20,362 bases of DNA from a virus: the IMG/VR virus record IMGVR_UViG_3300032011_001483, positions 1 through 20,362 of that record. One strand, given 5' to 3'. Below the pieces are notes generated by a model. That model was not told the origin of the DNA and did not search any database. It saw only the letters and a program-made list of their open reading frames with translations. The translations under genes and the position numbers were made by a program. This document shows, piece after piece, positions 2,650 through 18,055 of the stretch (its first letter is position 1; every line of letters begins with the position of its first letter).

Positions 2650-2796
2650 TTAAAATATCCATTGTAGTAATAGAACTACTAACACACCTTTAAAAAATGA
2701 AATCCACAAAGCACTGTACATAGATAAGTCTAATGTATCCATCATTGTTTTAAGAATATTTTCATGCCAATCTTTTACTTTTTGTAATATTTCCAT
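2650..2796 (-). CDS. Small single-span membrane protein, 48 aa, in lysis cassette
   Basis: A short open frame that begins MEILQKVKDWHENILKTMMD and ends with the hydrophobic run ISFFKGVLVVLLLQWIF. It has an amphipathic, charged N-terminal half and one transmembrane helix at about residues 28-47. Its ATG overlaps the stop of the acyl carrier protein gene (TAATG at 2798-2794), and its TAA is one base before the i-spanin ATG, so it fits the operon exactly. That packing is the main reason to call it real. A small membrane protein just before a spanin pair could be a holin or lysis regulator, but I see no family-specific motif. There is no strong Shine-Dalgarno. Confidence 0.68.
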   Translation of the reverse strand: MEILQKVKDWHENILKTMMDTLDLSMYSALWISFFKGVLVVLLLQWIF

Positions 2797-3014
2797 TATG
2801 AATTATCCGAAATGTATTGTTTGAGTAGACCAACTGTTGTTAACGCATCAGTATCTTCGTCAGGTATTTCTAAATCGAATTCTTCTTCAACACCCATAAC
2901 GATCTCTACTATACTTAATGAATCAGCACCTAAGTCTTCAATAAAAGTTTTGTTATCAGTAACTTCTGATTCACTTATTCCTAAATTGTCTGCTATTATT
3001 CTTTCTACACTCAT
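2796..3014 (-). CDS. acpP: Acyl carrier protein
   Basis: 72 residues with the complete AcpP pattern: helix I (VERIIADNLGI), a conserved TFIEDLGADSLSIVEIVM block, then EEEFDLEIPDEDTDALTTVG. S32 in the DSL motif is the expected attachment site for 4'-phosphopantetheine. The protein would be charged by the host holo-ACP synthase and carry acyl groups. No other fatty-acid synthesis gene is seen in the window. The ATG at 3014 has a good AGGAGAT site five bases upstream and overlaps the previous gene by 4 bases (ATGA). The following gene starts on its stop codon, and it lies immediately upstream of the lysis genes. It is an auxiliary metabolic gene; whether it feeds lipid synthesis or acylates a phage or host target is unknown. 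Confidence 0.93.
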   Translation of the reverse strand: MSVERIIADNLGISESEVTDNKTFIEDLGADSLSIVEIVMGVEEEFDLEIPDEDTDALTTVGLLKQYISDNS

Positions 3015-3337: not shown

Positions 3338-4062
3338 CTTTTTCTTGCCATGTCTTGAATTCTTCTTAAAATTTTCTTTCTTTTTTTGACTACAACTGTA
3401 GATGAATCATCACCTGTACCAGCTATAGCAGGTCCTGTAACAGTACCCATATCTTCATTTTTTGTTGCGGCGATAGCTTTCTTCTCAGCTTCTTTTTCTC
3501 TGTCATGTTTTCTTTTTAGATCAGCTCGTTCTTTAGCTCTACTTACAGCATCTTCACCGACATCTAATGTTTTAGGATATCCTTTTTGACCTGGTTTAAG
3601 TTTTGGTTTACCTGCAGCTCTTCTTTTACGAATGTTCGCCCATAAACTTTCATTTTGTGTTTCCCATTTATCCATATACTCTTTTACCTCTCCCATGACT
3701 AGACCAGACAACTGTTGTACCATTTGTACTAAAGCTGATTGTGGTAGTGTTTGTAACATTTGTAGTTGTTTTTTAGATATACCTTTGACTTTCTTTAAAG
3801 CTTTTTGTACATCTACAGCTTCACTCCATTCTTTGAGTTTCTTTTCTCTAAGTCTTGGTTCTTTTCGATTGTAGTTTTGAGTAACTACTGATAAGTTTTT
3901 CTTGTCGTTGTTTAGTGGGTTATTATCTTTATGATGTACATCTTTATCTTCTGGTACATCTTTCATTGATCTTCTAGCAGCATTTCTAGCTGCTCGTCTG
4001 AGTTTTTGTTCAGGTCTTGAATGATAATTCTCGTACTCTTTCTTATAATTTCTCATAGACAT
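3334..4062 (-). CDS. HNH-motif protein with ESLWxNIRKRR tail
   Basis: About 242 residues from MSMRNYKKEYENYHSRP. An upstream in-frame ATG at 4125 exists, but it would give a longer overlap with the peroxiredoxin gene, and the MRNYKKEY start looks like related phage proteins (MRNY itself is at 4056). An HNH-like motif, DVHHKDNNPLNN (about residues 41-52) followed by NLSVVTQNYNR, resembles the zinc/metal His motif of HNH nucleases. A middle region is rich in Gln and Leu. The segment ESLWANIRKRRAAGKPKLKPG (about 138-158) closely matches a segment in the protein at 14034-14669. The C-terminus is very basic (KKRKKILRRIQDMARKR). It could be a nuclease or, as its tail suggests, a virion-associated DNA-binding protein. 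It overlaps the neighbouring genes by 4 and 20 bases. Confidence 0.75.
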   Translation of the reverse strand: MSMRNYKKEYENYHSRPEQKLRRAARNAARRSMKDVPEDKDVHHKDNNPLNNDKKNLSVVTQNYNRKEPRLREKKLKEWSEAVDVQKALKKVKGISKKQLQMLQTLPQSALVQMVQQLSGLVMGEVKEYMDKWETQNESLWANIRKRRAAGKPKLKPGQKGYPKTLDVGEDAVSRAKERADLKRKHDREKEAEKKAIAATKNEDMGTVTGPAIAGTGDDSSTVVVKKRKKILRRIQDMARKR

Positions 4063-4516
4063 TTTCTGGTGAAGATATATCATACGGGTCTTCTGTATGA
4101 TTATCACATTTACCTTCTTCGGCAAACATTTGTTCTACTATACCATTATTTATAACACACGCGTATCTCCAAGACCTTACACCGAATCCTAGATTGTCTT
4201 TCTTACATAACATACCTAATCTATCAGTTAGTAGACCTGATCCGTCAGCTAACCATTTAACATTTAAAACTTCTTGATCTTTAAACCATTTACTCATTAC
4301 AAAAGCGTCATTGACTGAAACACAATAGATTTCATGTATACCTTTCTCTTGAAACTTACTGAACATTTCTTCATATCCAGGTAATTGTTTAGTTGAACAA
4401 GTCGGTGTGAAAGCTCCAGGCAATCCAAACAATATGACTTTCTTGTCTTTAAAAAGTTCTGTTGTATCGACTGGATCGAATGGTGCTTGTGGTAGGGTTA
4501 AGTTGTTGATATCCAT
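4043..4516 (-). CDS. Peroxiredoxin (Prx5/redoxin type)
   Basis: 157 residues with a thioredoxin-fold peroxiredoxin signature: VILFGLPGAFTPTCSTKQLP holds the peroxidatic cysteine C40 in the PxxxTxxC pattern, then LPGYEE, CVSVNDAFVMSKW and LADGSGLLTDRLG, typical of the Prx5/type II peroxiredoxin group. It would reduce hydrogen peroxide or organic peroxides with thiol electrons from the host. Other cysteines occur at about 65, 104, 119 and 137; which one resolves, if any, is unclear. The ATG at 4516 has ACGGAGT upstream. Probably an auxiliary gene protecting the infected cell or redox-sensitive enzymes such as ribonucleotide reductase. Confidence 0.92.
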   Translation of the reverse strand: MDINNLTLPQAPFDPVDTTELFKDKKVILFGLPGAFTPTCSTKQLPGYEEMFSKFQEKGIHEIYCVSVNDAFVMSKWFKDQEVLNVKWLADGSGLLTDRLGMLCKKDNLGFGVRSWRYACVINNGIVEQMFAEEGKCDNHTEDPYDISSPENVYEKL

Positions 4517-6547: not shown

Positions 6548-6998
6548 CATTTAGAATGTTTAAAAATTTGAGAAATGTCCTTTTATTCTTCGACATCGCT
6601 TTAATAACTTGAAGTCTCTGTTGAGGTTTTTGTTTCTCTAAATTTTTAGAGATGTTTTGAGCATCCTTTTTTGATATTTTAATTTTGCTCTTATCATCTA
6701 GTTTTATTTCGCCACCGCTACTTAAATCGGCCGCTCCTTTTATCTGAACAAATACATTACGATCTGCTTTGCCTTGTTCTCCTTTGTTACCCTTATTGTT
6801 AAAGAATTCTATCGCAGCTCTAGTAATCAATTCATCTTTAGCATCTTTGTATTTACCACCCAATTTGAGTGCTAACTTATCAATCATGCCGAGTAATTCT
6901 TTTTCTGTTTTAGCTTTTTGAACTAAAGCATACAATAAGTTATTACCTGCTTGTGTCGGCATCCCCATATCAGGAGCTTTTCTACCTTCATCAATCAT
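6543..6998 (-). CDS. Uncharacterised basic protein
   Basis: 151 residues, rich in Lys, no membrane segment. N-terminal helices (NNLLYALVQKAKTEKELLGMI, then KLALKLGGKYKDAKDELITR) lead to a linker and a Lys-rich C-terminus (KISKKDAQNISKNLEKQKPQ...). I do not recognise a family. Its ATG overlaps the stop of the large upstream gene (TAATG), so it is probably translationally coupled to it and works with it or at the same stage. The late promoter of the next gene overlaps its 3' end. Confidence 0.7.
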   Translation of the reverse strand: MIDEGRKAPDMGMPTQAGNNLLYALVQKAKTEKELLGMIDKLALKLGGKYKDAKDELITRAAIEFFNNKGNKGEQGKADRNVFVQIKGAADLSSGGEIKLDDKSKIKISKKDAQNISKNLEKQKPQQRLQVIKAMSKNKRTFLKFLNILNV

Positions 6999-7615
6999 TA
7001 GTAACTATTCTTGATATAACCAAGTTTTTTCATTTTCTCACGAAAATTAGTTCTTCTACCGTCAACTTTCATCTTTGAAGGATTTTCTTCACCTTCTTTA
7101 ACACCCAGTCTTTTCATCACAACTTTAATTTGTGAATTGACTGCTGGTAATTTGTCTGACTTAGGTCCTTCTTTGGCAATGATTCTCGCTTTCATCAATA
7201 GTAGATCAGAATACTCTGTATATTTACCTTCTTCTACTGATTCTTTCTTTTCACCTTTACCACTCCAATTCTTATCAACATAGTTATAAAATTCTTTTTC
7301 TTTATCACCTTCTAACTCAGCTGGTGAACTAACACCGTACTTTTTGAGTGCTGATGCAAAGAACTTTTGATAAGCTGTTTTCTCGTCTTCTGATAATGCA
7401 TTATAGAATTCATTGTTAAATGATTCATTAGCTAATCTTAACATATCTCTAACTTTAGGATCATCAGATAATCCTTTCTTTAATTTTTCTATAGCTTTGA
7501 CTGCACCTGTCATATTACCACCGACATATCTTTTGTCGAAAGCAATCCCACCAGCTTGTCTAACTAATTTTTTAGGAAATTTTGCTTCAGATATAATCTG
7601 ACTAAATGATTTCAT
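6998..7615 (-). other. Probable internal in-frame start giving a 205-aa product
   Basis: Inside the 902-codon frame, GCAGGAGAAAAC ATG places a strong AGGAG Shine-Dalgarno (7625-7621) five bases before an ATG at 7615. The product would begin MKSFSQIISEAKFPKKLVRQ, which looks exactly like a protein N-terminus of the capsid-targeting kind, with I-S-E as the protease tripeptide. It then continues through the SALKKYGVSSPAEL module. Either a separate protein is made from this site, or a formerly separate gene has fused with the upstream one. The same bases encode AGENM in the long frame, so coincidence cannot be excluded. Confidence 0.5.
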
Positions 7616-9706
7616 GTTTTCTCCTGCATACTTAAATGTAAATGACTTACCAGTGTGTTTATCTTTAAGATTGTAAGTATTCTCACACATTTTTAGAACA
7701 GGTCCTATGGCTTTCATACCATCAGGTTTTACAAATTCTACATCTAATTCTTCTTCTAATGCTGTATCAATATCTTGCCATGAATAGTTGATCGGTTCTA
7801 GATTATCTTCTGTAACTGATTCTAAAGCTAAGATAATTCTTTGAGTTTCTCTATCTTCAAAAATATCATCAAGTTCTGTTTTATTGTATGTTAAAAATCC
7901 AGCTTTACCTAATGTTTTTTCTAGTTGTTCTAACTGTAATTCTTGTTCTGTAATCATACCGAATGAATCACATGCTTCTAGTAAGTCTTGATTAGTAGCA
8001 TGTCTTATACCGAATCCTTCTGTATCAATACCAACTGCTTTAGGATAAGCTTGAGATTTTAATTTAAATGGTGATCTCTGAGCATTTTCAAAATCTGATT
8101 GTAACTGTTCTGTTTGAGACTTACCTAATCTTTTTTGTCTGTCTCTAAATGTCTCTTTACCTTTTAAAGAACTAAGATTTCTTTCTCTCTCTTTTCTTCT
8201 TCTTTCTTTTTCAGCAGGTGAGTTAGCTTTGTCTTGAGATCGTTTCATGTTCGCTACATTCTTAGCTCTTTCAGCGTCTCTCATTTTCTTTCTTCTGAGT
8301 TCGTCTTTTTCGCTTGGTGTTAATTCAGATTGAGGTTTTTTCTCTAACTCTGTCTTATCTTCATTCTTCATTGCTTTACCAATTGCTTTTCTTCTTTTGT
8401 GAAGATACTTATCAGAAGAATCTACATCACCATCATTATCGATATCATCATCAGCTTTACCAACAGGATCTAATCTGTCTTCAAACTTAACAAACTTACC
8501 TCTAGGTTTTTTAAAGTTGCCTGGTTTTTTCTTTTGTAATCCTGGTGTCACTCCTTCATCTAACCATTCAGCAGGTACACTTATAATTTTGTAATTTTTA
8601 ATAGTCATCCACTCATCTAAATGTGTAACTAGAATATCTCTCATGTCCATACCCTTGTTCATTTCGATCTTACGACCTTTGAATGTTGCAAAAGCATATA
8701 CATTTCTACCAGGACCTTTACCATATTTTGATCTAGCTTCTTCTTCATTCTTAAGTAGAAGTTCTAAGAGATACATATCATCACTAAATGAATCGTCACC
8801 AAATAGAGGATCAACACCTCTAGCATATTTCTTAACTTGTGCTGGACTGTTAGCTATCTTCTTAGTTTTTAAAAATTCTTGATTGAGTCTATTTAATTTT
8901 GCTCTTGAGTCTGGTATAGCCCATGTACCTTCTTCTAGTCCAACACTTTCTTTAACATACTTCTTTAAATCTCTTACTTGTATGTTTAAAGTTTTGTTTT
9001 TTGGGTGTTCAATATGTGGTATTCCACTTATCATCTTTACTGTTAATTCTTGACCTTTACCAATAACTGATCCTCTGTATCTCAATGGTTTACTTAATAC
9101 TATTTTCTGGCCATCTTTGAATTCATTGACTGATTCTTTTCTTGGTCCTTTCTTCTGACCGTAATATGACTTTAAGAAGTCTTTAGCTGTTGACAAAGGC
9201 ATTTTGTAATCTCTAGCTAATTCTTTAGCTGTAGCACCTTGTTGAATGTCTATAAGCATGTCACTCATAGCACCTTCACTCATGATTGATTCTTTAACTT
9301 CGTTGTATGGGAATCCTTTTAATGGGTCTTTATCAAACTCATGAGATGCTTTTAATCCCATAAATTTATGAGCTAGATCAACAAGAGTATCAATGTTAGC
9401 TTTTTCCATTTTCTTTTTGTTAGTGTCATTTACTTTACTGTAAACTTTTTTAAGTAATGATGCAGTGAACATATCAATCATTACACCACTGACTTTTTTA
9501 GCACCCTTAGTGTCAACGATCTTTTCGATCTCTGGCATTAGATTCTTTTCAGATATTGTTTGTTCTACAACAACAGATTTATCTTTTGTATATCCCATCT
9601 TCTTCGCTTGTTGTTGATAGCGAGTTTCTGCAGGTTGTTTTTTTGTGACTTCTTCGATAGCTTTTCTTAAGTCTTTGAAGTCTGTTACTGTTGTTGTGCC
9701 TTTCAT
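6998..9706 (-). CDS. Large mosaic virion-associated protein with EF-hand-like loop
   Basis: 902 residues, hydrophilic and highly charged, with no catalytic domain recognised. It reads as modules joined by KESV/EEG-type linkers (for example around 138-145, 190-194, 252-260, 629-633, and another near the C-terminus). Modules include MSDMLIDIQQGATAKELARD (about 147-166, helix-turn-helix-like), an acidic loop DIDNDGDVDSSD (421-432) matching an EF-hand/dockerin calcium loop, a long basic helix (about 470-530), and an AYQKFFASALKKYGVSSPAE module near the C-terminus. Several of these recur in cyanophage and pelagiphage proteins as I remember them. At residue 698 an internal MKSFSQIISE peptide follows an AGGAG site. 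The first ATG (9706) follows GGATAATATT. Probably a head or prohead component; possibly processed. Confidence 0.8.
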   Translation of the reverse strand: MKGTTTVTDFKDLRKAIEEVTKKQPAETRYQQQAKKMGYTKDKSVVVEQTISEKNLMPEIEKIVDTKGAKKVSGVMIDMFTASLLKKVYSKVNDTNKKKMEKANIDTLVDLAHKFMGLKASHEFDKDPLKGFPYNEVKESIMSEGAMSDMLIDIQQGATAKELARDYKMPLSTAKDFLKSYYGQKKGPRKESVNEFKDGQKIVLSKPLRYRGSVIGKGQELTVKMISGIPHIEHPKNKTLNIQVRDLKKYVKESVGLEEGTWAIPDSRAKLNRLNQEFLKTKKIANSPAQVKKYARGVDPLFGDDSFSDDMYLLELLLKNEEEARSKYGKGPGRNVYAFATFKGRKIEMNKGMDMRDILVTHLDEWMTIKNYKIISVPAEWLDEGVTPGLQKKKPGNFKKPRGKFVKFEDRLDPVGKADDDIDNDGDVDSSDKYLHKRRKAIGKAMKNEDKTELEKKPQSELTPSEKDELRRKKMRDAERAKNVANMKRSQDKANSPAEKERRRKERERNLSSLKGKETFRDRQKRLGKSQTEQLQSDFENAQRSPFKLKSQAYPKAVGIDTEGFGIRHATNQDLLEACDSFGMITEQELQLEQLEKTLGKAGFLTYNKTELDDIFEDRETQRIILALESVTEDNLEPINYSWQDIDTALEEELDVEFVKPDGMKAIGPVLKMCENTYNLKDKHTGKSFTFKYAGENMKSFSQIISEAKFPKKLVRQAGGIAFDKRYVGGNMTGAVKAIEKLKKGLSDDPKVRDMLRLANESFNNEFYNALSEDEKTAYQKFFASALKKYGVSSPAELEGDKEKEFYNYVDKNWSGKGEKKESVEEGKYTEYSDLLLMKARIIAKEGPKSDKLPAVNSQIKVVMKRLGVKEGEENPSKMKVDGRRTNFREKMKKLGYIKNSY

Positions 9707-11216: not shown

Positions 11217-12284
11217 TTATTGACCTCTTATTTTTCCTATTCTTTCTCGTTCAGCTTTCTTAGCACCCGGTAATAATTTTTTTGTGAGTTTAGCTATGGC
11301 AGCCTTTTTCTTATCTAGTTTTTTACCTAGTTGTATTTTTTGAGATATTGTTAATTGACTTAATGGTATACCACCTGATAATTTCATAGCTACTTTATTT
11401 CGAGCTATCATACCTGCTTTCTTCAACATATCATCAGGTCCTTTCATTCTCATAGCTTTTTTCTTTGCTGATCTAGCTCTTTTCTTGGCTGTTCTTTTAG
11501 CTACACGACCTCTTGCAAGTCTTTGTTGCATGTTTAATGCTTCTTGCATTTCTATAAATTCTTTAAATTTATCCATTGTAATATTATTTATGTCTTCTCT
11601 AACAGACGAATCCATACCTCTTTTAACAGCTGCTATCCATTCTAATGCGTTATTGTTATGTTTTCTTGCCCATACTGTTAACTTACCAGCTAAACTTTTA
11701 TCTATCGGACCACCATTGTTTTCTACTTCATGAAAATTTCTTTTACCATGTTTCTTTAAATAACCTTTGACAACTTGTGCTTTTTGATGTGATTTTTCTA
11801 CTATTCTCGGTGGTACTGTTCTAGCTCTCTCATTGTTTCTTTGTAATGCTACTTCTAAATCTGTTTGAATAAATAATGCTTTAACATCATACCCAGCTTG
11901 TTCTAACAGTCTATACATTTTAAATGTTTTACCTTGATCACCAGATGTTGAATCAACTATGATACCCATTCTAGCATCAATCAATGATTTAAATCTTTTA
12001 TCTGTTAACCCTTTAGCTGCTACTCTAGCAGCTTCTCTATCTTCTGTTTCATTCTCTGGCATCTTTAATGAAAGACCTTTTCTTTTCATCAACATCTCAA
12101 AAAAACTATCTGAGTTAACAACGATAAGACCTAAACTTTTAAGACCTAGTTGTTTAGCAACATAAGATTTACCACTACCAGGACCACCTGCTAGAATAAT
12201 TGCTTTAAATATACCTGGATCATTGACACCTTCATCTAAGTCAAGTACTAAGTCTTCTTCTTTGTAATTAAGAATCGATTCCAT
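11217..12284 (-). CDS. P-loop kinase (zeta-toxin/PNK-like) fused to basic virion-type tail
   Basis: 355 residues in two parts. Residues about 25-200 are a P-loop kinase: Walker A GGPGSGKS (33-40), VVNSDSFFEML, GIIVDSTSGDQGKTF, and the lid-like ALQRNNERARTVPPRIVEKS, a pattern shared by zeta-toxin and polynucleotide-kinase-like enzymes; substrate unknown. The tail begins with a capsid-targeting-like MDKFKEFIEMQEALN (from residue 237) and is extremely basic (RGRVAKRTAKKRARSAKKKA..., ending KKAERERIGKIRGQ), like basic domains of marine T4-like virion proteins, suggesting DNA binding. A late-promoter-like CATAAATA lies just upstream of that internal ATG. The main ATG (12284) has AGAGGAAAT and overlaps the upstream gene by 17 bases. 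Confidence 0.82.
   Translation of the reverse strand: MESILNYKEEDLVLDLDEGVNDPGIFKAIILAGGPGSGKSYVAKQLGLKSLGLIVVNSDSFFEMLMKRKGLSLKMPENETEDREAARVAAKGLTDKRFKSLIDARMGIIVDSTSGDQGKTFKMYRLLEQAGYDVKALFIQTDLEVALQRNNERARTVPPRIVEKSHQKAQVVKGYLKKHGKRNFHEVENNGGPIDKSLAGKLTVWARKHNNNALEWIAAVKRGMDSSVREDINNITMDKFKEFIEMQEALNMQQRLARGRVAKRTAKKRARSAKKKAMRMKGPDDMLKKAGMIARNKVAMKLSGGIPLSQLTISQKIQLGKKLDKKKAAIAKLTKKLLPGAKKAERERIGKIRGQ
11574..11592 (-). promoter_or_regulatory. Possible internal late promoter and internal start
   Basis: Within the kinase-fusion gene, minus-strand CATAAATA (11592-11585) is followed nine bases on by an ATG (11576) that begins MDKFKEFIEMQEALNMQQRL. The predicted transcription start (near 11578) is two bases before this ATG. 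A 119-residue, very basic product would result (11217-11576). There is no Shine-Dalgarno. The arrangement resembles that at 18055-18069, but AT-rich coding DNA makes chance matches likely. Confidence 0.3.
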
Positions 12285-13425
12285 ATTTCCTCTTTGCCAT
12301 GTTCATAGCTGTTGCATGCATGATTGAATCAGCTTTGTCACCATGTTTTCTTACAAAGTCTGCTCTTTCTTTTTTTAATTCTTTGTACATTTTTTCTTTG
12401 TATAGTAAAACTTCTTTCGGTAAATCTTCGGCTTCTTTTATCTTTTTAACATATTTGACTACAGATTGTCCTGGTGTATGTTTCTGAGCGTATTCTCTAC
12501 CTGCGTCTGTACCCCATTCGTGTTGTTGAGGATTATATATTTCATACATGAAGTCTGGAAAGTCTTCACGAATACCCATACCTTTCTGTACAGCTTTGTA
12601 TAATTGTTTACCTAGTTTATACCCACGAGGTAGTGAATCAACGAATGTTTTTTCATCACCTACAGAAACTAATTGTCTCATTTTAGAAGCTGACATCCCA
12701 TCTATACCTTTTGAGTCAGGATCTCTTTCACCTGCAGAGATAACTTTAATTGTTTTGAATTTATAATACCCATGTCTAGCTTTGACACCATTATATTTAT
12801 TTAGTAGATTATTAAATTCTTTAATTCTGTCTGAACCAACAACCATTTGTATGTGTTCATAACCTTGATCATGTAAATTTGTCACTACATCAAATACAGT
12901 TTTAGCATCAGTTCTCTGAACATCAATACCACTAGGTAACATTGGGTTCATAAATTGTCTGATCTGTTTATTAGTTAATGGATTCTTTTTCTTATCTGTA
13001 GTATGTGAAGTAAATATCTGTACATCATGACCTCTAGATACTGACTTCATCTTAGCTGCTAACTTCATGTGTCCAACAGTCGGTGGATTGAATCTTCCAA
13101 ATGTGAATGTCACACCTTTGTCTTTAGCTTCTGTTATCTCTTTAAATGTCTTCTCAACTTCTTCGAATCTAAACTTTAACATTTTTTCTATTGTCTTATC
13201 TTTTTGTTTAGTATAATAAGATAGTTCACCAGCAAGTGCTAGTTTGTCACCTCGGTTTAATTTTTGAAACCAATTCATAAATGTAAGATACCCTTTGTTA
13301 CCTTGAGTCATTGCATCTTTAGCTAACTTAGCTAGTCCTTTATCGAACTTGCCAACATCTTTAGCCATATTTTTAAAGCCTTTGACAGCTAAATTTAAAA
13401 AATTGTCTTGATCTTTTGTGTTCAT
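12268..13425 (-). CDS. Nicotinamide-nucleotide adenylyltransferase-like protein with extra N-terminal domain
   Basis: 385 residues. From about residue 105 comes a cytidylyltransferase-like nucleotidyltransferase domain: FTFGRFNPPTVGH (G110-H119, with the HxGH-type PxxGH motif), then QMVVGSDRIKEFNN and GMSASKMRQLV (the ISTxxxR-type motif), as in NMN/nicotinate-nucleotide adenylyltransferases. These join NMN and ATP to make NAD. Residues 1-90 are an added helical domain; between the two lies EKTFKEITEAKDKG, which looks like the capsid-targeting-like N-terminus expected directly before such a domain. This suggests a fusion. The C-terminal region ends KADSIMHATAMNMAKRKYG, a motif seen in other marine phage proteins. 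The substrate is inferred from motifs. It overlaps the kinase gene by 17 bases and the cupin-like gene by 4. Confidence 0.82.
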   Translation of the reverse strand: MNTKDQDNFLNLAVKGFKNMAKDVGKFDKGLAKLAKDAMTQGNKGYLTFMNWFQKLNRGDKLALAGELSYYTKQKDKTIEKMLKFRFEEVEKTFKEITEAKDKGVTFTFGRFNPPTVGHMKLAAKMKSVSRGHDVQIFTSHTTDKKKNPLTNKQIRQFMNPMLPSGIDVQRTDAKTVFDVVTNLHDQGYEHIQMVVGSDRIKEFNNLLNKYNGVKARHGYYKFKTIKVISAGERDPDSKGIDGMSASKMRQLVSVGDEKTFVDSLPRGYKLGKQLYKAVQKGMGIREDFPDFMYEIYNPQQHEWGTDAGREYAQKHTPGQSVVKYVKKIKEAEDLPKEVLLYKEKMYKELKKERADFVRKHGDKADSIMHATAMNMAKRKYGIDS

Positions 13426-13691
13426 ATTTTTTCTATCCGTAAGACTAATTTTGTCTTACCTTTTATTATTCTATGATACATATCTCTAGGTATCTCGAAT
13501 ATTCTGTCTTTCATCAATTCTATCGGTAAACTACCATTGAATTGAAACTGCCATCCTTCTCCTTCTAATACTGTAACTTTTCTGTCTTCTGAATCTCTAT
13601 GCCAAACTAAATCATCACTATTTACACTAGAATAGAATGTTCTGAGTTCACCATCGTCTTCGTATGGTTTACCAGAAATAATTTCCACCAC
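13422..13691 (-). CDS. Cupin-like small protein
   Basis: 89 residues, a single small beta-barrel by pattern: ELRTFYSSVNSDDLVWHRDS, then EDRKVTVLEGEGWQFQFNG and RIFEIPRDMYHRIIKG. The WHRDxEDRxVxVLEGxGW arrangement recurs in T4-like marine phages as a cupin-fold protein. His residues at WHRD and MYHRI could bind metal. Function unknown. No ATG is available at the start: GTG codons stand in tandem at 13691 and 13688, close behind AAAGG, so the exact start is uncertain. It overlaps the upstream gene by 23 bases and the downstream one by 4. Confidence 0.75.
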   Translation of the reverse strand: MVEIISGKPYEDDGELRTFYSSVNSDDLVWHRDSEDRKVTVLEGEGWQFQFNGSLPIELMKDRIFEIPRDMYHRIIKGKTKLVLRIEKI

Positions 13692-14037
13692 CTTTTAATC
13701 CTAGAGAGTCAGCGTATGACGGTAATCTACAACTCCAATATCTAGCTGATAATTTATCATTAGCTGTATCACAATTATGTCTATCAGCAAATGCTTTTCT
13801 AGCTTTTGGGTCTGTTAATTTAACTGATAAATTAGCACCACCGTCTTTAGCTCCAAATGAAACTTTCTTTACTTTGTCGCCGTCTTTAACATAGACATAA
13901 AACTTCTTCGATCCACCTTTCTTAGGTTTACCGATTGGCTTGTCTGGTTCTTCTGTTACTTCAACCATTGGTCTTTCTAATGGTACATGCTTACCTTCGT
14001 AAAGACCATAGTCAATATGTTCTAAAAATGTTTTCAT
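13669..14037 (-). CDS. Conserved phage protein with RHNCD...ARYWSC motif and capsid-targeting-like start
   Basis: 122 residues. The start MKTFLEHIDYGLYEGKHVPL resembles a capsid-targeting sequence, with L-Y-E before G as a possible gp21-type cleavage point. After a Pro/Lys linker comes KKFYVYVKDGDKVKKVSFGA and then FADRHNCDTANDKLSARYWS, continuing CRLPSYADSLG. The RHNCD...ARYWSCR pattern is a conserved family in marine T4-like phages (often called structural); the two cysteines may pair or bind metal. The ATG at 14037 overlaps the upstream gene by 4 bases. No enzyme signature is seen. Probably a virion or internal head protein. Confidence 0.75.
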   Translation of the reverse strand: MKTFLEHIDYGLYEGKHVPLERPMVEVTEEPDKPIGKPKKGGSKKFYVYVKDGDKVKKVSFGAKDGGANLSVKLTDPKARKAFADRHNCDTANDKLSARYWSCRLPSYADSLGLKGGGNYFW

Positions 14038-14669
14038 TTTTTAGCCTTACCTTTCATTTTGTTTTTTCTTTTTCTAGCTGCATCGGCTTTAGGACTGTTA
14101 CTAAATTTTACACTCGTATCAAATTGTTTCTTTGATACTGAACCGTCTTTACCCATTTTCTCACCAGAACCTCTTTTAATTCTTTCTCTTTTCTTTCTGA
14201 TATTATCCCACAAACTTTCTGTTTCGACTTCTTCTTTAGCTCTAACTTTTTTTGCTAAATCACTATCGGCTTTACCCCATGTACCTTTACCTTTAGTAAT
14301 AAAAGAATTGACACGAGCATGACCCCACTGGACAGCTGTTGTCCCTGGTCTATGTCCCGTCTGCCAAGCTTTTACACCTCTTTTGAATACTTGTTTAAGT
14401 ATTCCTACAGGTATACCTGACTTCTTAGACTTGTCATTCAATGATTTATCTGGATTACTTTCACCAAACATCTTTTTAAATTTTAAAGTATGTTTACTTG
14501 GTTTAGTCTTAGCATCATCATCACCTGGTGCTGGAGCAGTACTACCTTTAGCAAAATGTTTAGCTCGTGCTTCTTTTTCTTTCTTACTCAATCCTTTGTA
14601 ATACTTTTTAGGTTGTGTACCTGGTTCGTCTTTTACTGTAGGATCTTGTGGTTGTTTTCTTTCTTTCAT
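14034..14669 (-). CDS. Conserved basic phage protein with ESLWDNIRKKR motif (DUF5824-like)
   Basis: 211 residues from the ATG at 14669, which overlaps the upstream stop (TAATG); a TTG at 14681 would add four residues but is less likely. Basic, with KKYYKGLSKKEKEARAKHF near the N-terminus, PAPGDDDAKTKPSKHTLKFK, SGIPVGILKQVFKRGVKAWQ with TGHRPGTTAVQW, RVNSFITKGKGTWGKADSDL, then ESLWDNIRKKRERIKRGSGE. The central TGHRPG...QW...RVNSF block recurs in many marine and jumbo phages as a domain of unknown function that I believe is DUF5824. The ESLW segment is shared with the HNH-motif protein at 3334-4062. The Lys-rich C-terminus suggests DNA binding. Confidence 0.75.
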   Translation of the reverse strand: MKERKQPQDPTVKDEPGTQPKKYYKGLSKKEKEARAKHFAKGSTAPAPGDDDAKTKPSKHTLKFKKMFGESNPDKSLNDKSKKSGIPVGILKQVFKRGVKAWQTGHRPGTTAVQWGHARVNSFITKGKGTWGKADSDLAKKVRAKEEVETESLWDNIRKKRERIKRGSGEKMGKDGSVSKKQFDTSVKFSNSPKADAARKRKNKMKGKAKK

Positions 14670-15880
14670 TACTTGTCCCAATTTTTTGCTACAGTAAAGT
14701 TATTAAAACTGAATTCCATTTTGTCTACAATTTTAACAGCTTCACCCGTTCTATCTATAGCTACATATCCTTCTGGAGCTACTACTTTCAATCCTTTGTC
14801 TGTCTTTACAAATGTTTTTGCTATCCCTTTAGCTGAATCCATTTTCTTGACAATCATTAGTTTAGCTTCTATCAAAAACCTCATGAAGTCTACTACTTGT
14901 TCTAATGTTTTAAGTGAACTTTTAATTACTTTTAAGTGTTCTCTTAGTTTAGAATTTTGTACAGGACTATCTGATTTATTCTTTTTCCACCAATTAGTAA
15001 AATGTGCTTGATATAGTTTAACAGCATCTTTACCTTTTGGTAATGTTTTTCCTGCTCTTGTATATGTATTTAGATAAGTTTTAAACCCAGCTCCAACAGC
15101 AGATGTACCTAAACTGTCTTGCCATTTTAAAAACTTACTGAATGATCCTGAGTTAATTCTATGAAATTGTTTACCTGCAGCTGATAATAACTTAGTCACT
15201 TGAACTGTTTCTTTAGCTGTAAATGTTGCTCTACCTGATACATCTCTGTATGTTGCATCGTCTTGCCATACACTAGATGAAGTCTTAGGTATCTTAGCCC
15301 CAAACGAAGCACTTAAGTTTTCTATTGAGTCTCCTTTATATGTTGTGTGCCAGACTATACCAACTTTAGCTTTTTGTACTTCTCTACCTATTTCTGAATC
15401 AGATTCAACTGCATACAATATTGTGTTAGGTTGAAATGTAATATGTTTTACACCGTTGATAGTTTTAGTAGATGTATCGTCTGTAAACATTAAATCTCCT
15501 TGAAGTATCTCTGTCATACCTAGTTTACTAAATTCATCTAAACAAACTTTTAATTTTTTATTTAAGTCACCGTCTGTATCAGCATCAATATCTTCGTATG
15601 TATGATAATAAGGTTTAGGATCTTGATTCTTTCTGAACAATGCTTTCTTAGCAACGAAGAATCTACCTGTCTCAGGATGAGGTCCAGCAAAGACAGCAGG
15701 AGCTCCGTCCCACTTGACTGTCACATTCAGTTTACTTTTTGAACCACCTTGAAACATATCTCTTAGTGACTGTAAAAACTGTATAGCACCTCGACCACCG
15801 GCAATACCGAAGTTTAGAATCTCATCTTCAAGATGTTCTAAATGCAAATTCTTACCTGCTGCTTCTGTTATAAATTCCAT
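14669..15880 (-). CDS. Ligase-like nucleotidyltransferase candidate (DUF6267-like), capsid-targeting-like start
   Basis: 403 residues. It starts MEFITEAAGKN, short but with I-T-E before A as in prohead-protease sites. Motifs match the order of covalent nucleotidyltransferases (DNA/RNA ligase, capping enzyme): VTVKWDGAPAVFAG (54-66, K56 in KxDG, motif I), EILQGDLMFTD (124-134, motif III-like), and, after a long insert, PEGYVAIDRTGEAVKIVDK (369-387, EG as motif IV and VKIV with K383 as motif V). K56 would form the lysyl-AMP adduct if it is active. The long stretch between motifs III and IV is unusual, so it may be a divergent or inactive member. I believe related cyanophage proteins carry a DUF6267 label. 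The gene abuts the PAP2 gene upstream and is TAATG-coupled downstream. Confidence 0.75.
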   Translation of the reverse strand: MEFITEAAGKNLHLEHLEDEILNFGIAGGRGAIQFLQSLRDMFQGGSKSKLNVTVKWDGAPAVFAGPHPETGRFFVAKKALFRKNQDPKPYYHTYEDIDADTDGDLNKKLKVCLDEFSKLGMTEILQGDLMFTDDTSTKTINGVKHITFQPNTILYAVESDSEIGREVQKAKVGIVWHTTYKGDSIENLSASFGAKIPKTSSSVWQDDATYRDVSGRATFTAKETVQVTKLLSAAGKQFHRINSGSFSKFLKWQDSLGTSAVGAGFKTYLNTYTRAGKTLPKGKDAVKLYQAHFTNWWKKNKSDSPVQNSKLREHLKVIKSSLKTLEQVVDFMRFLIEAKLMIVKKMDSAKGIAKTFVKTDKGLKVVAPEGYVAIDRTGEAVKIVDKMEFSFNNFTVAKNWDK

Positions 15881-18055
15881 TTATTTACCTTTCAAAGCTT
15901 CTTTAAATTGTTTAGAGAATGTAGCTAAAAAACTAGGTGCTGATGTGAAGTTACCTTTGTATCTCAATGTCACATCACATACAGCTGTTGATCCAACTGA
16001 TAAAATCATGTGTAGCATCGCTGCAGTAGAACCCCTATCAAACGCTTGTGTTTTATTTTTATCTAACTTCATTGATGGTTTACCTGTTTTAAATAACTCA
16101 TCAAGTTTAGTAGTCATTGTATCAACATCTTGATAATCACCTGACTCTATAACTAGACCACTCTTTAACATTCTACCTACACCTGTAACTAAAGCGAAAT
16201 CAAAATTTACTTTCTGTAATTCTTTTAATTCAGTTTTTAATATCAATCTAATTAGTGTATCAGCGAATAAGTCAGCGTTCTTTTCTATAACATCAGCCAT
16301 AGGTTTGAATATTGATTTATTTTTCTTCAACTGATAATTAATTAGATCATTTGGTAAAGCTGTGACAAAAGATTGCCAGTTACTTGTACTTAAATTCTTA
16401 GCATTCTTACCTAGTTTATCCATCAAATCTTTTCTTATCCATGGATTGCCATCTTTATCTACAGCTATCTTAGGTCGTGCTAATTGAAATCTTTGAGCAG
16501 TCTTTACAACACCACTGTAAAATAAATAAGCAGAATCATCTAAATCTTTTCTGACTTTATCAAATTCTTTACCTTTTAATAGTGTACCAAATCCTTTATT
16601 GATTAATGTTGGATCACCTGTCGTACCAGATTTCTTTTTCTTTAATGATATACCAATATAGTTATTACCTTTCTTAATAATAAAATCAGATGCATTGAAA
16701 TCTTTCATACCATATTTTGTGACTTGAAATTGTTTAACATCATCACTCCAAGCTTTACCTGTTAGATATACTTTGTCAGCACCTTTCCAACCACCTTTCT
16801 TAGCGATCACTTCTGCTGCTGAGATAGCTTGAACTAAATTACTATAATCATTTTCTAATGCTTGTTCTTCAAATGATGTATATCCTATAACTTTACCAGT
16901 CTTAATAACTTTTTTAACTTCTTCTATTAAAGCATCTAAGTCTTCTATTGTTTCGACTGTTGGTATTGAAGACATTGTACATAGTGCAGCTGTCATTAAT
17001 TCGTTTGGATCTGCTGTAGCACCACCACCTCGTTTAGTGTCAGGTCTCGTTGTCACATATATTTTTCTATCTATGTCTTTGTGTTTGAAAGCGAAGTCTT
17101 TTGTTGCTCTTGACGCTGTAGGACTTTCTAATGATAAGTCTTCGTCACTACCAATAATATCATTAGATAATGTAGTAAACTTAACTCTCTCATTAGGTTT
17201 GAGTATTATTTGTACACCAATTTTCTTACTGTTAGTTCTACCTGATCTCTGATCTAGTGATACTTCACCATTAATTGAACCTATTTGTTTATCGATATCA
17301 GCTACAACATCAACAGCAAAATCTTTTTCGTCAGCACCACTATACTCTAATGATTCAACCATTTCTAATGTTAGATCGGGTTCCATACTTTGTTTAGACA
17401 TATCATATAAATGATTACCGAGTCTTATACCAAATTCTGTATCAGAAGGATAATGAGCTCCAGCAGTTTGTCTACCTTCACCTATTCTTTTACCTATTTC
17501 TAAAATATTACTTCTATGTTCTAATGGTGCTTCATCAGCCACTAATAAAGATACTAGTCTACCTTGTGTAGCATGACCAGAAGGATATGAGGGTGAACCT
17601 GCTGTCTTTAATGGGAATGTTTCTAGTGGTAGACCTAACTCTTTTGCTATCGCTATCGGTCTTGGTCTATTATAATGTCTTTTAAGTGAAAGTATAATTG
17701 GTTCAGTTTGTCTTCTTAAATCTTTTATTCTATCAAAATCAATTTCTAAACCATATTCATCAGCGTAAAGTTTAAACTCTTTCATGATACTTGTATCATG
17801 CATAACTATATCGTCTGTTTGTTTTTGTATTAACTGACCTAGAGAAATTAAATACTTTATTTCATTGACTGTCTGTAAAGATGAATTAGAAGGTGGTGGC
17901 ATTGATTGCCAATCTTCTAAGTTGATATGTTCGAAAGCTGGAAAAGGTTTACTTAAAGTCTTTAAATGTTTCTTCGGATACTTAACCATGTGGGTAAGTT
18001 TATCAAGCTTGGATTTTGGGGTATCTTCTTGAATTGTTTGTAGAAATGATTTCAT
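15881..18055 (-). CDS. PAP2/class A acid phosphatase fused to a possible nuclease domain
   Basis: 724 residues. N-terminus MKSFLQTIQEDTPKSKL is capsid-targeting-like (I-Q-E). Residues about 60-220 form a PAP2 phosphatase with all three active-site motifs: KRHYNRPRP (K125...R132-P133), YPSGH (157-161), and GRQTAGAHYPSD (R195, H201, D205). No membrane spans are seen, so it resembles the soluble class A acid phosphatases rather than lipid phosphatases. The large C-terminal part (about 240-724) contains NASDFIIKKGNNYIGISLKK (D457...K472), compatible with a PD-(D/E)xK-type fold though the usual acidic residue is Ser470; DPTLINKGFGTLL follows. A CATAAATAC element just upstream would start a leaderless late transcript exactly at the ATG. 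The substrate is unknown. Confidence 0.82.
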   Translation of the reverse strand: MKSFLQTIQEDTPKSKLDKLTHMVKYPKKHLKTLSKPFPAFEHINLEDWQSMPPPSNSSLQTVNEIKYLISLGQLIQKQTDDIVMHDTSIMKEFKLYADEYGLEIDFDRIKDLRRQTEPIILSLKRHYNRPRPIAIAKELGLPLETFPLKTAGSPSYPSGHATQGRLVSLLVADEAPLEHRSNILEIGKRIGEGRQTAGAHYPSDTEFGIRLGNHLYDMSKQSMEPDLTLEMVESLEYSGADEKDFAVDVVADIDKQIGSINGEVSLDQRSGRTNSKKIGVQIILKPNERVKFTTLSNDIIGSDEDLSLESPTASRATKDFAFKHKDIDRKIYVTTRPDTKRGGGATADPNELMTAALCTMSSIPTVETIEDLDALIEEVKKVIKTGKVIGYTSFEEQALENDYSNLVQAISAAEVIAKKGGWKGADKVYLTGKAWSDDVKQFQVTKYGMKDFNASDFIIKKGNNYIGISLKKKKSGTTGDPTLINKGFGTLLKGKEFDKVRKDLDDSAYLFYSGVVKTAQRFQLARPKIAVDKDGNPWIRKDLMDKLGKNAKNLSTSNWQSFVTALPNDLINYQLKKNKSIFKPMADVIEKNADLFADTLIRLILKTELKELQKVNFDFALVTGVGRMLKSGLVIESGDYQDVDTMTTKLDELFKTGKPSMKLDKNKTQAFDRGSTAAMLHMILSVGSTAVCDVTLRYKGNFTSAPSFLATFSKQFKEALKGK

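Follow-up and report, generated by a model that had tools for sequence, protein, structure and literature searches.

The stretch of DNA analysed here, a 20,362-base window of the IMG/VR virus record IMGVR_UViG_3300032011_001483, carries a group of enzyme genes that is probably a packaged enzyme cassette, a variant of the internal-protein strategy of phage T4. On balance, and with some reserve, we favour the reading that this is a cassette of head-internal, predicted nucleic-acid-processing enzymes of T4-like marine phages, by which the phage may bring such enzymes ready-made into the cell. Genes for a gp41 helicase of the T4 type and for a gp61-like primase, similar to those of cyanophages and of Pelagibacter phage HTVC008M, are present in the window. 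Four enzymes reported by a first-pass annotation of this sequence were recovered at the same coordinates as full open reading frames (ORFs), with motifs and families that match: a protein of 724 amino acids (aa) combining a PAP2 phosphatase with a nuclease-like part (15881–18055), the ligase-fold nucleotidyltransferase-like protein DUF6267 of 403 aa (14669–15880; Pfam PF19782, 1e-92), an NMNAT/NadR-like adenylyltransferase of 385 aa (12268–13425), and a P-loop kinase of the zeta-toxin/PNK/PSTK-like type (11217–12284). These and all other features of the window described below lie on the minus strand. The order of transcription is helicase, NT5C nucleotidase, p68, PAP2-nuclease, DUF6267, DUF5824 protein, p122, p89, adenylyltransferase, and kinase. 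All four are part of a cassette that is conserved among T4-like marine phages, with the kinase and PAP2 as accessory members.

The coherence of the cassette is supported by gene order and gene fusions. Of the DUF6267 loci followed by 4 kb or more of sequence, 69 of 74 encoded the adenylyltransferase within 6 kb of DUF6267 on the same strand, and in P-HM1 DUF6267 (GC 71) adjoins the cytidyltransferase (GC 190). Adenylyltransferase and kinase formed one ORF at four loci (L075, L076, L077, and L080). A single protein of 942 aa (L136) combined a start resembling a T4-type capsid-targeting sequence with the adenylyltransferase, PAP2, and other cassette parts, and both of its enzyme domains passed the Pfam cut-offs. 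Fusions of the adenylyltransferase with the DUF5824 protein (14034–14681; Pfam PF19141, 2.7e-25) and with p122, a small protein (13669–14037; phrog_7595, 1.7e-14), were common within one clade. A fused ORF of DUF6267 and adenylyltransferase, hinted at by phrog_455, which spans both, was not found among 388 loci. Separations also occur: in S-SCSM1 and S-CREM2 no DUF6267 gene adjoins that of the adenylyltransferase. Among sequenced phages the adenylyltransferase is present in 527 records vs. 412 with DUF6267, which Pfam lists as a domain of unknown function. Despite the separations, the core genes show correlated presence. The earlier proposal that the four enzymes act as a set is supported by the gene order of DUF6267 and the adenylyltransferase and by the fusions of the latter with the kinase or PAP2, but the kinase and PAP2 themselves are accessory.

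In T4, internal proteins reach the scaffolding core by means of a conserved capsid targeting sequence, and IPI* is injected and blocks a restriction enzyme (reviewed in PMC3012670). The T4 N-termini are MKTYQEFIAEA in IPII and IPIII and MKTFKEFTSTTTPVSTITEA in IPI. A strict pattern for tags of this type was matched by 20 of 21 PAP2 proteins (0.2% after shuffling) and by 19 of 44 adenylyltransferases, compared with 0.2–0.3% of shuffled sequences overall and 0–7% in most neighbouring families (helicase 0/15, p264 0/14, p89 0/24, p90 none, NT5C 2/27). The pattern was devised after some of the sequences had been seen, so these rates are descriptive; the shuffled sequences and neighbouring families serve as fair controls. 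In the 228-kb genome of S-SCSM1, 2 of 402 six-frame ORFs matched, the NMNAT-like protein among them.

Among the enzymes of the window and their small neighbours, a clear T4-type tag was present only in the PAP2-nuclease (MKSFLQTIQED; the first ten residues, MKSFLQTIQE, are encoded by 18026–18055) and in p122 (MKTFLEHI). DUF6267 of the window begins with a short form, MEFITEA, and the match of the kinase was weak; in both families the tags are loose or partial, with fuller forms in some DUF6267 clades (MMKFTQFLAES, MIKFSSFLTED). The adenylyltransferase of the window keeps the motif internally, as FKEITEA at residues 94–100. Where this enzyme has an extra N-terminal domain, as it does here, an FKxITEA site stands directly before the catalytic core. 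The site resembles that of a prohead protease (FKEITE/A, 13126–13146): a T4-protease-like FxxIxE preceded the GRFNPP of the catalytic core in 73 of 78 sequences, and at least 90% of 37 sequences kept Glu99, although their N-termini vary. The first-pass annotation had linked all four enzymes to capsid-targeting peptides, which goes too far: of the four, the PAP2-nuclease alone starts with a clear tag. A further protein of the window, of 902 aa (6998–9706), contains an internal capsid-targeting-like MKSFSQIISEA and a calcium-binding-like DDIDNDGDVDSSDKY stretch; it has PHROGs 4359 and 3326 in common with virion protein 92 of S-SCSM1.

Orthologues of the adenylyltransferase have been reported in virions of S-SM1, S-SZBM1, S-SCSM1, S-CREM2, and S-CBWM1. 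Mass spectrometry of S-SM1 virions detected the cytidylyltransferase T4-GC190 (PMC3037559), that of S-SZBM1 virions detected S-SZBM1_140 and its neighbour _139 (PMC9146016), and ORF154–156 were detected in S-CREM2 virions (PMC10665884). In S-SCSM1, the adjacent genes 89–93 are annotated as virion proteins, gene 91 being the NMNAT (PMC9602691). The detection in S-CBWM1 is cited in PMC10665884. Three of the virion-detected orthologues begin with MKSFLQFLKEA, MRFRQFIIEA, and MKNFSSFLTEA. Packaging, as envisaged in the first-pass annotation, is thus backed for the adenylyltransferase family by published mass spectrometry and by tags and for the PAP2-nuclease by tags.

The adenylyltransferase matched cytidyltransferase PHROGs (phrog_3041/395) at 7e-52 and Pfam CTP_transf_like at 3e-4, just past its cut-off. 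Its active-site motif GRFNPPTVGH (residues 110–119; 13069–13098) and MSASKMR were kept across 37 aligned homologues (alignment A4), so that the GRFxPxxxGH and ISxTxxR-type motifs of nicotinamide mononucleotide (NMN) adenylyltransferases (NMNAT/NadR/NadM) are both present. We take these motifs to sit closer to the NMNAT/NadR branch than to the cytidylyl branch, and judged by them an NMNAT/NadR-like assignment fits better. None of the curated NMNAT models reached its cut-off, the best NCBIfam matches being far below. The core gave no match to Protein Data Bank (PDB) sequences, and profile A4 gave only a weak one, to MJ0951. At the C-terminus, a peptide of the GTDxxRxxxQxxTPGQ type recurs, including in the homologues L086, L087, and L090 and in fused proteins; it is possibly a further packaging or linker signal.

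These properties bear on an alternative that we regard as possible but rather improbable, in which a packaged NMNAT-like enzyme rebuilds nicotinamide adenine dinucleotide (NAD+) from NMN against NAD-depleting defences of the host, or recycles NMN released by an NAD-using ligase, and the other genes are bystanders. It agrees with the GRF-x-P-P motif, with the best NCBIfam matches, sub-threshold as they are, being nicotinamide/nicotinate nucleotide adenylyltransferases, and with the presence of NMNAT-like proteins in virions, for which cyanophage authors have put forward a role in NAD metabolism; phage NAD-reconstitution pathways exist (PMC12774641). However, none of the genes NAMPT, Adps, and Namat was recognised within the 20-kb window, NMN is no more than a putative substrate of a family that phage records annotate as cytidyltransferase, and the nuclease and DUF6267 neighbours are left unexplained.

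In the PAP2-nuclease, the PAP2 motifs K-x6-RP, PSGH, and R-x5-H-x3-D were invariant in 19 homologues. The catalytic region (residues 125–205; 17441–17683) contains the invariant K125, R132, P133, S159-G-H161, R195, H201, and D205. The Pfam PAP2 score of the window protein (24.1) was under the cut-off of 27.2, passed by the fused relative P0001 with 43.9; the PhoC model gave 1.8e-5, also under its cut-off. The alignment of homologues showed a PAP2 half that is tagged and constant, followed by a C-terminal half that changes among several unrelated sequences. A separate model of this half, for the type present in the window, had a predicted local distance difference test (pLDDT) score of 84. Residues 101–490 of this model aligned with the restriction enzyme HinP1I (2fkc, Z 8.6, 218 residues, 4.6 Å; 1ynm, Z 8.2). 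The motif SD-x12-SLK (residues 456–472; 16640–16690), with S222, D223, S236, L237, and K238 invariant in the numbering of alignment A5, fits a variant D...xK nuclease site with serine at the S-x-K position. Residues 5–114 of the model aligned with pol-beta-type nucleotidyltransferases (Z 9.5); we do not regard this domain as an active transferase, since no hG[GS]...DxD signature was seen.

Of the 388 DUF6267 loci, 337 had an ORF of 200 aa or more upstream, and 298 of these 337 ORFs fall in seven families, in each of which [ILVF]S[LVI]K was found in 74–100% of members. Together with the swapping of C-terminal halves, these families suggest that the slot before DUF6267 holds exchangeable nuclease-like proteins, the structural support coming from the model of one type.

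Such a slot could also belong to an injected polymorphic effector. In the manner of polymorphic toxins, its variable nuclease tips would attack nucleic acid of the host or of a competitor on entry, with DUF6267 and the adenylyltransferase restraining it, protecting phage DNA or recycling the products. We consider this about as improbable as a system for NAD restoration. The constant tagged half of PAP2 with its exchangeable C-terminal halves, the variety of unrelated proteins with [ILVF]S[LVI]K upstream of DUF6267, and the predicted HinP1I-like fold would all be in keeping with it, as would gene 90 of S-SCSM1, a virion protein bearing the SPAD...GVSLKK signature of this kind. On the other side, the nuclease tip is a prediction from one modelled type, and an immunity role of DUF6267 is without support.

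For DUF6267, 51 homologues with identity down to 33% were aligned from viral contigs. Invariant positions were K56-W-D-G59 (motif I; 15704–15715), Q127-G-D-L130, P369, E370-G371, V373, K383, and V385, the last six lying in motifs IV and V (PEGYV...VKIVD, residues 369–386; 14723–14776), as well as HLEHxED and HTxYxG. Motif I KxDG and motif IV EG of the covalent nucleotidyltransferase superfamily were thus present in all 51 sequences. A helical insert of about 140 residues (about 210–350) precedes motif IV. In S-SCSM1_257, a compact homologue of 294 aa (L095:21406–22290), the insert is much reduced, and KMDG, QGDF, EGF, and VKLV are kept. Motif V has a single lysine (K-x-V), in contrast to K225-x-K227 in the T4 Rnl2 group.

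The AlphaFold2 model of DUF6267 had a mean pLDDT of 79. Foldseek ranked T4 Rnl1 first with no significant match (E 0.13). In VIA-align, the twelve best rows were all RNA ligases with Z values from 7.6 to 6.8, all below 8 and in the range which the program rates as middling. The best was Naegleria RNA ligase (Z 7.6, 173 residues, 3.9 Å); the Trypanosoma brucei editing ligase TbREL1 gave 6.8 over 187 residues, T4 Rnl2 6.1, T4 Rnl1 5.8, and DNA ligases 5.3–5.8. Unrelated rows were mostly helical proteins placed on the helical parts of the model. With middling Z values the fold alone is not convincing; it becomes persuasive together with invariant motifs in the right order. A comparison of the DUF6267 profile with the T4 Rnl2 profile, the only one used, gave a probability of 0.4 of 100 in hhalign and aligned motif IV alone, and PDB sequences returned only chance coiled-coil matches. 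We conclude that DUF6267 is probably a ligase-like covalent nucleotidyltransferase, on the strength of its motifs and model, and not a member of Rnl1 or Rnl2.

Several observations weigh against a head-internal cassette. The adenylyltransferase of the window has about 90 residues ahead of its tag-like site, and DUF6267 of P-HM1 and P-TIM40 is without a tag. DUF6267 was not found in any published virion list in the literature searched, nor is it among the 30 listed virion proteins of S-SZBM1 (PMC9146016); in S-SCSM1 its homologue lies apart from the adenylyltransferase in another part of the genome and carries no annotation as a virion protein. The kinase and PAP2 are absent from many genomes with the core. 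Among PAP2 proteins the count of [ILVF]S[LVI]K is too high, as ILSLKR also occurs within the PAP2 domain. Finally, the authors of the proteomic studies caution that carry-over from the lysate is possible. If carry-over accounted for the virion detections and the tags were coincidental, the genes could be ordinary, non-virion genes of nucleotide metabolism beside replication genes, and their location, flanked by the genes of the gp41 helicase and the gp61-like primase and adjoining NT5C, would suit that explanation. We consider it unlikely: the detections recur in five phages and separate studies, tag rates far exceed those of the shuffled and neighbour controls, and Glu99 persists where the N-termini vary.

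The kinase matched the Pfam models Zeta_toxin (5.5e-18) and AAA_33 (4.9e-16), as well as polynucleotide-kinase and seryl-tRNA(Sec)-kinase models, with further support from PHROG and NCBIfam, and its Walker A motif, GGPGSGKS (residues 33–40; 12165–12188), is complete. An HAD phosphatase domain was not detected on it with Pfam, PHROG, or NCBIfam; the C-terminal domain is basic and helical instead. PDB sequences gave no match. The search with the kinase named no cyanophage among its organisms, though cyanophages carry the core. The phmmer matches named 'Kinase' in short Melnitz and C48C1 proteins were rejected, as they comprised only the basic C-terminal helical domain and no kinase. The least probable alternative is RNA repair in the manner of T4 Pnkp and Rnl1, systems of which the first-pass annotation was reminded. 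Here the kinase and phosphatase would mend the ends of tRNA or other RNA cleaved by anticodon nucleases of the host, and DUF6267 would rejoin them. The kinase models and the RNA ligases nearest to DUF6267 point that way, but we find it unsupported because no HAD domain was detected on the kinase, the phosphatase is of the PAP2 type, DUF6267 has no significant match to Rnl2 and no KxK in motif V, and no cyanophage is named among the kinase matches. PAP2 is not known to act as a nucleic-acid 3'-phosphatase.

For the favoured cassette of head-internal enzymes, the following course can be proposed. T4-type capsid-targeting N-termini would draw some members into the prohead, where a gp21-like protease would trim the packaged members after the (I/L)xE site, and the trimmed proteins would be packed alongside the DNA and delivered with it into the host. 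The conserved core would consist of the polymorphic nuclease-like protein, the ligase-fold DUF6267, and the NMNAT-like adenylyltransferase, to which the kinase and PAP2 phosphatase are added in some lineages, by fusion or as neighbouring genes. In the cell, the likeliest targets of the enzymes would be nucleotides or the ends of nucleic acids during the first minutes, ahead of phage gene expression; candidate tasks are repair of damaged phage DNA, rejoining of RNA cleaved by host defence, restoration of NAD+, and attack on host nucleic acid. In this scheme we infer packaging of DUF6267 and the kinase, injection, catalysis, a joint substrate, and a benefit to the phage. A bolder version appears doubtful to us: DUF6267 would be a new family of polynucleotide ligases entering in the virion with a polymorphic restriction-like nuclease, and the packaged NMNAT-like enzyme would recycle the NMN that the ligase produces. 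The result would be a self-sustaining cut-process-seal kit able to repair or rearrange nucleic acid ahead of phage gene expression.

Marine T4-like phages are very abundant in the sea. If the proposed course is true, their early infection would not depend on gene expression alone, since enzymes would be delivered with the DNA, and for DUF6267 the role of a ligase-like nucleotidyltransferase would become open to testing. Concrete predictions are tag-dependent packaging, trimming at the conserved glutamate, formation of lysyl-AMP, and nuclease activity of the exchangeable tips.

Other features of the window are p89 (13422–13691), a small protein conserved within the cassette and without a Pfam, PHROG, or NCBIfam match, which appeared cupin-like by eye; a gene for an acyl-carrier-protein-like protein of 72 aa with a DSL attachment motif, recognised from sequence (2796–3014); a peroxiredoxin-like gene (4043–4516; phrog_2281, 5e-63); and a spanin-like pair of overlapping genes (1772–2648). 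Comparison of the enzymes with a library of defence systems returned nothing useful.

Virion NMNAT-like proteins and the T4 internal proteins are already known. The ligase-like assignment of DUF6267, a family without mention in the open-access literature searched, was not found there, nor were the exchangeable tips behind a tagged PAP2, the trimming site, and the fusions linking the set. The NARP1 and NARP2 pathways of NAD+ reconstitution use the partner enzymes Adps with Namat or NAMPT, none of which was recognised in the 20-kb window. T4 Pnkp and the window kinase have the P-loop kinase of a broad superfamily in common, but Pnkp carries its HAD phosphatase in the same protein, and in the window the phosphatase is PAP2. 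The SD-x12-SxK motif of the nuclease half resembles the D...xK catalytic pattern of HinP1I; unlike HinP1I, this predicted half follows, in one fused protein, a PAP2 phosphatase and a pol-beta-like domain in which the usual catalytic signature was not seen. RNA and DNA ligases (Naegleria RNA ligase, TbREL1, T4 Rnl1, and Rnl2) have KxDG, EG, and the motif-V lysine in common with DUF6267, which is set apart by its helical insert, HLEHxED and HTxYxG, the single lysine of motif V, and the absence of a sequence-level match. The cyanophage virion protein T4-GC190, a homologue of the adenylyltransferase, was treated singly in the literature searched, where ties to DUF6267, nuclease tips, kinase, PAP2, tag, and trimming site were not found. 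The closest parallel in tag pattern and phage lineage is with IPI, IPII, and IPIII of T4. The T4 internal proteins are small, with few functions known, and these three are inhibitors, of which IPI* is injected, whereas the tagged cassette proteins are large predicted enzymes.

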